From Verrucomicrobiota bacterium (GTDB taxonomy: Bacteria; Verrucomicrobiota; Verrucomicrobiia; JAWXBN01), in the NCBI GenBank assembly GCA_034440155.1, contig JAWXBN010000031.1, positions 1-41,517 on the forward strand: a stretch of 41,517 nt of DNA, in the 5' to 3' direction. This document shows, one piece after another, positions 15,215 through 16,644 of this stretch. The position numbers and the translations under genes are program-made. Position 1 is the stretch's first letter. The number at the start of each line of letters is the position of its first letter. The notes under the pieces were generated by a model that was given only the letters and a program-made list of their open reading frames with translations, did not search any database and had not been told where the DNA came from.

Positions 15215-16348
15215 GTGACCTCTGCAATTCACTCCACGCACAAAGGATCGTTACTGGTTATTGACGATGATCCGGGTATTATCGAGTCACTTGCTCTCCA
15301 TTGGAAACACAAGGAAATCCCTTATAATATTATCTTTTCTGAAACAGTCGAAGATGCCCTCCGTGTTCTGGCCACACAACAAGTCGATGTCGTTCTCACT
15401 GACCAACAGCTCCCCGATGCCACTGGATTATTCCTCATGACAGAGATCAACCGCAGGCATCCTCTGATTAAAGTCATCTTGATGACGGCGAGGCCTTCAG
15501 AAGAAACACGTTTAAAAGCATTAGCCCTCGGCGCTGTGGAATTCATTGCAAAACCCTTTGACCTTAATACACTGGACTCCCTCCTGCTGAATATCCGTTC
15601 TATTAAACACGTGGGATTTTCAGGGATCATCTACCAGCTTTCCTTGGCGGATATGGTTCAGTTAAAATGCTCAACGTTAGCACGGGTGAAAATCATCCTC
15701 AAAAATGGGCCCCATGAAGGAATCCTTTATTTTGACAAGGGCAGCTTCATTCACTCAAAACTCGGAGGACTAGAGGGGGAAGAAGCATTTTACCAGATGT
15801 TCAGCTGGCAGCGAGGGCAGTTTGAAGAACATCCCTACCTCGATAATCCTGTAAAGAATATCAAACGTAACTGGGAAGGCCTCCTCTTGGAAGCAGCCCA
15901 GAAAAAAGATGAAATCCTCATCTCCAGCGATCAGGATTTTGATTCGCTGCCCCCCCAAGACACCACTCCCGAGCCTCTCCAAGGTGATGACGCGTGGAAT
16001 GAAACAAAAAATCCACCGGACGAGAACGCGGTGATAAACCTTTCCACGTTTCCGGACGTTAAAGGATCATTAATATCCTCCCGCTCAGGCACACTCTTAA
16101 CGGCCAGCCTCGATGAGAATCCGAATCAGGCGGGGGCGCTGGCCTCTTTTCTGGTCCAACAAGGCGAGTGCTTGGCCCGTATCCTCCGCGAGGAGACCAC
16201 ACAAGAAGTATTTATCGAGACGGTCCTAGAAAAGAGGTTTATTTTCCCCCGAGGTCAAAATCTGGTAGCCATTCACTTAGCCCCTGAAACCGCTTCATGG
16301 CCTATGCGTGAAACATTCAAACAATCAATCAAAAGCTCTGACTCATGA
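15215..16348 (+). CDS. Response regulator: receiver, DUF4388/PATAN and C-terminal roadblock-like domain
   Basis: This 377-residue signalling protein has a phosphoacceptor receiver domain at 11-130: acidic pocket Asp17-19, phospho-accepting Asp63 in LTDQQLPDATG, Thr91 and Lys113 in AKPFD. A DUF4388/PATAN-like domain follows at about 135-235 (GIIYQLSLADMVQL, then GILYFDKGSFIHSKLG and EEAFYQMFSWQRGQF). After a disordered acidic linker, residues about 275-365 look like a roadblock/LC7 fold (KGSLISSRSGTLLTASL). There is no DNA-binding domain, so output is likely through protein contacts. The start is GTG at 15215. It overlaps the next gene by 4 bp. The roadblock call is moderate; the receiver is firm. 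Confidence 0.83.
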   Translation: MTSAIHSTHKGSLLVIDDDPGIIESLALHWKHKEIPYNIIFSETVEDALRVLATQQVDVVLTDQQLPDATGLFLMTEINRRHPLIKVILMTARPSEETRLKALALGAVEFIAKPFDLNTLDSLLLNIRSIKHVGFSGIIYQLSLADMVQLKCSTLARVKIILKNGPHEGILYFDKGSFIHSKLGGLEGEEAFYQMFSWQRGQFEEHPYLDNPVKNIKRNWEGLLLEAAQKKDEILISSDQDFDSLPPQDTTPEPLQGDDAWNETKNPPDENAVINLSTFPDVKGSLISSRSGTLLTASLDENPNQAGALASFLVQQGECLARILREETTQEVFIETVLEKRFIFPRGQNLVAIHLAPETASWPMRETFKQSIKSSDS

Positions 16349-16644
16349 GTGATTTTCAAGACACACTGGCAAAAATCGATGGGGTCCAAGTCGCTTGGAC
16401 TTATGACACCCGTGGAAATATTAGATCAAAAACGATCAGTGATTATACCGATGATATCCTGCGTGAAATCAGTACTCTCTTGGCTTCTTTAGCCTTCATG
16501 CACAAAAAAAACAGTAGCACCATATCTAAACTCCACTATCGCTTCAAAAACCACCAGCTCTGGACTTTTTTCGACGGCGAGAATTATACCGCACTCATCG
16601 CAGATGAAGATGCCATGATCGCCGAGTCGATGGACGGCCTGTAA
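16345..16644 (+). CDS. Small roadblock/LC7-like protein
   Basis: This 99-residue protein begins near MSDFQDTLAKIDGVQVAWTYDTRGNI, the typical opening of roadblock/LC7 proteins (helix, then the sensing strand GV..A...D..G). It ends with LWTFFDGENYTALIADEDA, matching the last strands of the fold. Such proteins regulate small Ras-like GTPases (for example MglB) or act as scaffolds. The start overlaps the stop of the response regulator (ATGA), and that protein ends in a similar fold, so the two may form a heteromeric module. No GTPase gene is present in the window. Confidence 0.65.
   Translation: MSDFQDTLAKIDGVQVAWTYDTRGNIRSKTISDYTDDILREISTLLASLAFMHKKNSSTISKLHYRFKNHQLWTFFDGENYTALIADEDAMIAESMDGL

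Follow-up and report, generated by a model that had tools for sequence, protein, structure and literature searches.

A response regulator ending in a roadblock-like domain and its overlapping roadblock partner gene: a candidate two-component input to MglA in Verrucomicrobiota

What does a receiver domain control when its protein ends in a roadblock-like domain and the next gene, overlapping it, encodes a second roadblock-like protein? This question is raised by two plus-strand genes in a stretch of 41,517 nucleotides from a Verrucomicrobiota genome, which we analysed whole and refer to as the window. The first gene (15215-16348, GTG start, 377 aa), recognised from the ORF list, Pfam and a structure model, encodes a response regulator laid out as receiver, DUF4388 (which we take to be the PATAN domain), linker and roadblock-like C-terminus, and the second (16345-16644, ATG start, 99 aa) encodes a stand-alone roadblock protein. 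Both ORFs are present as a preliminary description of this DNA had them, with a 4-bp overlap in which stop and start share the bases ATGA (16345-16348, plus strand), as they do at other loci of the family called type A below. The pair stands without operon mates: a divergent HU-type gene lies on one side and tRNA-Leu, folP and glmM on the other (the tRNA was found by search, the other names were assigned by eye), and inspection of the window's ORFs revealed no kinase gene adjoining the pair.

The domains of the response regulator, all on the plus strand, begin with the receiver (residues 11-130; 15245-15604), which matches Pfam Response_reg over residues 14-122 (E = 7.2e-22); the listed matches of a VIA search with the response-regulator model are all receiver-domain entries of the PDB, with Z about 20. 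The receiver carries D17, D18, D63, T91 and K113, residues conserved across 74 aligned proteins: Asp at position 63 in 73 of 73, the one remaining row being gapped at that column, Thr or Ser at position 91 in 73 of 73 aligned rows, and Lys at position 113 in 74 of 74. Judged by these residues, the phosphorylation machinery of the receiver appears intact, with Asp63 (codon 15401-15403) as the presumed phospho-acceptor and Lys113 (codon 15551-15553) as the conserved receiver lysine. The PATAN domain follows (residues 134-241; 15614-15937), seen in the model and matched by Pfam DUF4388 over residues 137-233 (E = 3.6e-11; 43.6 bits, above the cut-off of 25), and leads through a linker with pLDDT mostly <50 (residues 242-275; 15938-16039) to the roadblock-like C-terminal domain (residues 276-377; 16040-16345). 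PATAN keeps other company as well: an 871-aa protein of the window genome (L060:4254-6869, contig G000:C26) combines receiver, PATAN, protein-kinase and FGE-sulfatase domains, and in two further ORFs (L057:5663-6598 and L059:5549-6547) PATAN follows CBS and cyclic-nucleotide-binding domains, a pattern that a general adaptor might show.

The 99-aa protein was modelled from an alignment of 22 sequences with a pLDDT of 86.4, and its predicted order of elements, H-E-E-H-E-E-E-H, is the complete alpha-beta-beta-alpha-beta-beta-beta-alpha order of a roadblock. Each of the 50 PDB matches listed by Foldseek for this model is either a roadblock protein or a chain from a complex that contains roadblocks (dynein, Ragulator/LAMTOR); among the matches listed, the best has an E-value of 6.9e-7 and Myxococcus xanthus MglB one of 2.1e-6. 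VIA likewise returned an archaeal roadblock at Z 13.2 and M. xanthus MglB at Z 12.3. Predicted fold and structural matches agree in supporting the earlier designation of this protein as roadblock-like. Pfam gave no Robl_LC7 match for it at E-values up to 1; its Pfam matches were DUF2173, below the cut-off (E = 0.0017), and, more weakly, DUF6371 (E = 0.063).

The response-regulator model (pLDDT 81.5) shows, over residues 282-374, the elements E-E-H-E-E-E-H, which is the roadblock order minus its first helix. Pfam Robl_LC7 matches residues 276-347 with E = 0.0019; its score, 18.4 bits when the protein was scanned and 20.8 when the genome was, stays below the cut-off of 23. The matches that Foldseek listed for this model, otherwise receiver domains, include a single roadblock chain (7yh1; 108 columns, E = 1e-7, target TM 0.80); Foldseek gave no residue range for the match, and we infer from the order of elements that it lies at the C-terminus. 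The model therein favours the earlier proposal of a roadblock on a response regulator, save for the first helix. Since the 99-aa model has the complete roadblock order and the response-regulator C-terminus all of it but the first helix, a non-roadblock fold in either region, which had been named as the result that would undo the proposal, is not what structure prediction gave.

Searched alone in 93 genomes of the class, the 99-aa protein found only itself at E 0.001, and relatives were therefore sought by gene order. An alignment of PATAN and the C-terminal region was scanned against named genome contigs. It gave 100 confirmed loci, of which the best 80 entered the analysis, nearly all titled Verrucomicrobiota and a few just 'bacterium'. 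The preliminary description had suggested looking for the gene pair in other Verrucomicrobiota, and it is indeed there: among these best 80 of 100 loci, and besides the window's own, 73 of 80 receiver-PATAN ORFs have a small roadblock-type ORF directly 3', which by match to two family models is of type A in 21 cases and of type B in 52. Seven lack a partner, of which four (L074, L083, L115 and L122) lie at a contig end, two (L066 and L107) have the partner match displaced or in another frame, and one (L085) has none that we found; these seven and L063, a PATAN ORF without a receiver, were left out of the pair counts. In L066 and L107 the roadblock end of the response regulator, or the partner, is out of frame, probably through frameshifts. 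L085 (4333-6330) is a 665-aa ORF in which HEAT-like repeats, recognised by eye, are joined to receiver-PATAN, parts that are neighbouring genes elsewhere. Again among the best 80 of 100 loci, a four-base stop/start overlap occurs in 16 of 22 type A pairs, the window counted (15 ATG, one TTG), and in type B the overlap is one of 13 bases in 46 of 52, as placed by a start-codon script that favoured these positions wherever they were present. Copies inflate the counts only slightly, since just three near-identical response-regulator pairs occur among the 74. Because the gene order recurs in relatives, the pair is more than a chance juxtaposition. A plasmid search with the 99-aa protein gave no match, and the type B C-terminal profile matched 0 of 194 genomes of the phylum, a set without any genome known to match and hence uninformative.

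Downstream of the type A pair at four of 25 loci (L043:5556-6251, and also L064, L100 and L200) lies a HisKA-like family with an H-D-L motif, one member of which matches HisKA (E = 0.001) and another nothing. This family is possibly the phosphotransfer partner of the type A pair.

Profiles of the two families point to the same fold. The best PDB match of the type B C-terminal profile, built without the window, is a Robl_LC7 protein (E = 8.6e-4), as is that of the type A C-terminal profile, which includes the window (E = 0.082). The type B small-partner profile has a roadblock as its sole PDB match (E = 0.018), and the type A small-partner profile reaches a roadblock first at rank 4 and weakly (E = 1.8). 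Compared by hhalign, the small partners of types A and B gave E = 1e-4 with a probability of 52%, and the C-termini of the two types E = 1e-4 with a probability of 58%; neither small family gave any hhalign match to the MglB-like protein. Of 32 response regulators scanned, Pfam found Robl_LC7 in one, namely the window's and below the cut-off, and of 44 small partners scanned in none; most roadblock domains of the type A and type B pairs are invisible to Pfam.

The window has the arrangement by which we define a pair, a receiver-PATAN-roadblock gene with a small roadblock gene immediately after it, and stands far from both families. Family models built without it fail to recognise the 99-aa protein (3.4 and 6.5 bits), and we therefore claim no orthology by sequence for that protein. 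A match of profile A2 to the window was rejected as evidence of kinship, since the window is itself among the sequences of A2 and the match is therefore circular. In trees that took every second or third type B row, and the first of which was missing one intended outgroup row, the response regulator of the window joins neither family and has a long branch, with AU p values of 0.017 and 0.018 against its joining A or B; the type B alignments A6, A7 and A9 used 10, 22 and 26 of the 52 members. With phmmer the 99-aa protein matches the partner in genome G120 at 18.4 bits (E = 0.0022), and BLASTP gave no alignment between the same two proteins. At L206, a PATAN-roadblock ORF without a receiver (153-908) is followed by a longer roadblock-like protein (934-1608); among the sequence matches of the window's 99-aa protein, this one scores highest (18.4 bits). 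The window pair is a very divergent, distant member, placed by architecture, overlap, fold and size and not by sequence.

Natural fusions bring the two roadblock parts into one chain. A 542-aa ORF (L168:235-1863, the same as L205:5063-6691) reads receiver-PATAN-roadblock-roadblock, and a 346-aa minus-strand ORF at L169 reads HEAT (by eye)-roadblock-roadblock, with neither receiver nor PATAN. Models built without L168 and L169 find both domains in each: the C-terminal type at 1e-24 and 2e-20, and the small type at 6e-13 and 2e-26, respectively. L164 and L206 encode a PATAN-roadblock protein and its partner without a receiver. Judging from these fusions and receiver-less loci, what stays constant in the system seems to be the two roadblock parts. 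In the alignments, the last helix is absent from most type A response regulators and their partners are complete, with the opposite arrangement in type B; such a complementary pattern would fit an asymmetric dimer. In a mirror-tree comparison, which omitted short rows and the window, the roadblock-roadblock correlation is the highest of all pairs and hardly above the rest, all four regions being correlated.

The preliminary description had the pair steering a GTPase encoded elsewhere, and the window genome does encode one MglA at the search threshold (contig G000:C45), which matches that of M. xanthus at E = 2.8e-66. Its gene is flanked upstream by one for a PilB-type ATPase and downstream by one for a Robl_LC7 protein (48 bits), so that both MglA and an MglB-like protein are present. 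The stretch around this mglA contains no receiver-PATAN ORF, and the window pair is not near it. G103, the relative with the closest MglA (77% identical), shares the ATPase-MglA-roadblock order, as read from its ORFs, and its type A pair, with an ATGA overlap, also sits away from its mglA. Among the best 80 of 100 loci, type A is near mglA in 0 of 17 loci with enough upstream DNA, the window counted. For type B, in the same best 80 of 100 loci, an mglA-like gene is divergent to the pair in 37 of 52 stretches and in 34 of the 36 with at least 3.5 kb upstream, usually accompanied by an MglB-like roadblock gene. A search of 141 class genomes gave 15 type B small-partner matches, 12 of them strong and three weak; nine of the 12 strong ones lie within 5 kb of mglA on the same contig, one lies 41 kb from it on the same contig, and two are on other contigs. 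The evidence of linkage to mglA comes from the sister family, type B. Of 13 genomes in which the type A profile has a match (counting the window genome and three weak matches), 12 have MglA, versus 46 of 141 overall (Fisher p = 5e-6 by genome, uncorrected for kinship). A version of the test by family was set aside, as its family total had been taken from the highest label. Since the two-gene unit recurs and often lies divergent to mglA, its probable role is to couple a sensory input to MglA. A GTPase as the target is plausible, with more evidence behind it than was available to the preliminary description.

Two other roadblock-like arrangements came to light. Upstream of mglA at L056 (4693-6678), a 661-aa Pro-rich protein has an end that is roadblock-like by eye, and its last 144 residues gave no Pfam match at E 0.5. 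In the window genome (G000:C67), a helix-hairpin-helix gene (L002:1219-1503; HHH_3, 6.9e-14) is directly followed by another Robl_LC7 gene (L002:1507-1848).

We tentatively propose, with a confidence just short of even, that the response regulator and the co-translated 99-aa protein form a phospho-switched roadblock heterodimer that acts on MglA. A histidine kinase or phosphotransfer protein would phosphorylate the receiver at Asp63, as its conserved residues suggest. PATAN and the flexible linker would connect the receiver to one half of the roadblock dimer, with the 99-aa protein as the other half, an arrangement to which gene coupling, recurrence and the natural fusions point. Phosphorylation may then alter the presentation of the heterodimer, which would bind or withhold a roadblock partner of MglA, or MglA itself. 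The GTP state or position of MglA would change and, with it, type IV pilus activity, a last step suggested by the mglA linkage of type B and by PilB beside mglA.

An improbable, if serious, contender is that PATAN itself is the effector, acting directly on the type IV pilus motor as in Synechocystis, with the roadblocks serving only to dimerise or position the protein and making no contact with a GTPase. PixE and similar PATAN response regulators are described as binding PilB1 (PMC7690835), the window genome has 12 T2SSE-type matches, one of them just upstream of mglA, and PATAN adjoins several inputs in that genome (a receiver with kinase and FGE, CBS, cNMP). A PATAN effector leaves unexplained, however, why the L169 fusion keeps the roadblocks without receiver and PATAN and why type B is so tightly linked to mglA, and PATAN is also found without roadblock partners.

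Rather unlikely, in our judgement, is an arrangement without any heterodimer, in which each roadblock part homodimerises and the overlap merely keeps the two proteins at equal levels for their meeting at MglA, like MglC and MglB. The latter are homodimers that interact as dimers (PMC10329633), and the profiles of the two roadblock parts show no similarity to each other in hhalign; yet the two natural fusions hold exactly one of each part per chain. We consider it very unlikely that the type A unit is a scaffold switch working with the adjoining HEAT-repeat scaffold and unrelated to MglA, for although 15 of the 25 type A loci inspected have an upstream neighbour of a HEAT-type family (one member Pfam-checked), HEAT repeats seen by eye are fused in L085 and L169, and type A loci lie away from mglA, the window locus has no HEAT neighbour and nearly all type A genomes contain MglA.

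Returning to the phospho-switched heterodimer, the wider claim, which we advance with a confidence somewhat short of even, is that a response-regulator output domain can be half of a roadblock dimer, and that a phosphorylation-gated heterodimer of this kind gives MglA and type IV pili a two-component input in Verrucomicrobiota, in two paralogous families, one of them back to back with mglA, whose roadblock domains Pfam mostly does not see. If this is true, a phosphorelay can plug directly into a Ras-like GTPase system through the roadblock half carried by a response regulator, in a layout simpler than RomR-MglC-MglB. The pairs would be candidate regulators of pili and polarity for a phylum with little open literature on the subject, and the blindness of Pfam to these domains suggests why they were missed. 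Control of roadblock pairing by a receiver would, moreover, be a question reducible to two small proteins and one GTPase.

The preliminary description had called a two-component input to such modules little described, which overstates the case: RomR, FrzS, AglZ, the conservons and PATAN near mglA are all in print. In Myxococcus, RomR, FrzS and AglZ are response regulators acting on MglA (PMC4316618, PMC10329633), and since such an input to MglA is already known from RomR, the window pair would be a variant on it. The open literature consulted on DUF4388, PATAN, roadblock and Verrucomicrobia, which took in few subscription papers, yielded no account of a receiver-PATAN-roadblock protein with a partner. 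PATAN genes near mglA were noted in 2006 (Makarova) and 2014 (Wuichet and Sogaard-Andersen; PMC4316618); the latter reports PATAN neighbourhoods with MglA or MglB for groups 1 and 5 of mglA and names Verrucomicrobia among the carriers of group 5 MglA, whereas its section 18 mentions neither a PATAN-borne roadblock nor an overlapping small partner.

Actinobacterial conservons (CvnA-D) also combine a two-component part with a roadblock and an MglA-type GTPase (PMC4316618), but they have a kinase and no response regulator, their genes stand all together, and PATAN goes unmentioned in the consulted part of that source. HGbRL of Methylacidiphilum is likewise a fusion of sensory domain and roadblock in Verrucomicrobia, from a genome that encodes an MglA-MglB-like pair, although its input is a globin instead of receiver-PATAN, and the portion of PMC4476040 consulted mentions no private roadblock partner. 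Ragulator/Rag offers heterodimeric roadblocks as GTPase platforms (PMC10329633) and structural matches to the 99-aa model; unlike the window pair, it is eukaryotic and has no receiver, and the Rags unite GTPase and roadblock in one chain. The closest mechanism is RomR-MglC-MglB of M. xanthus, in which a response regulator and roadblock proteins steer MglA and type IV pili (PMC10329633, PMC12719032). In RomR the receiver is followed by a disordered region and a helical, Glu-rich C-terminus, and the roadblock to which it binds, MglC, is a separate protein, whereas the window protein has PATAN, a beta-rich roadblock-like C-terminus of its own, and a private partner in an overlapping gene.
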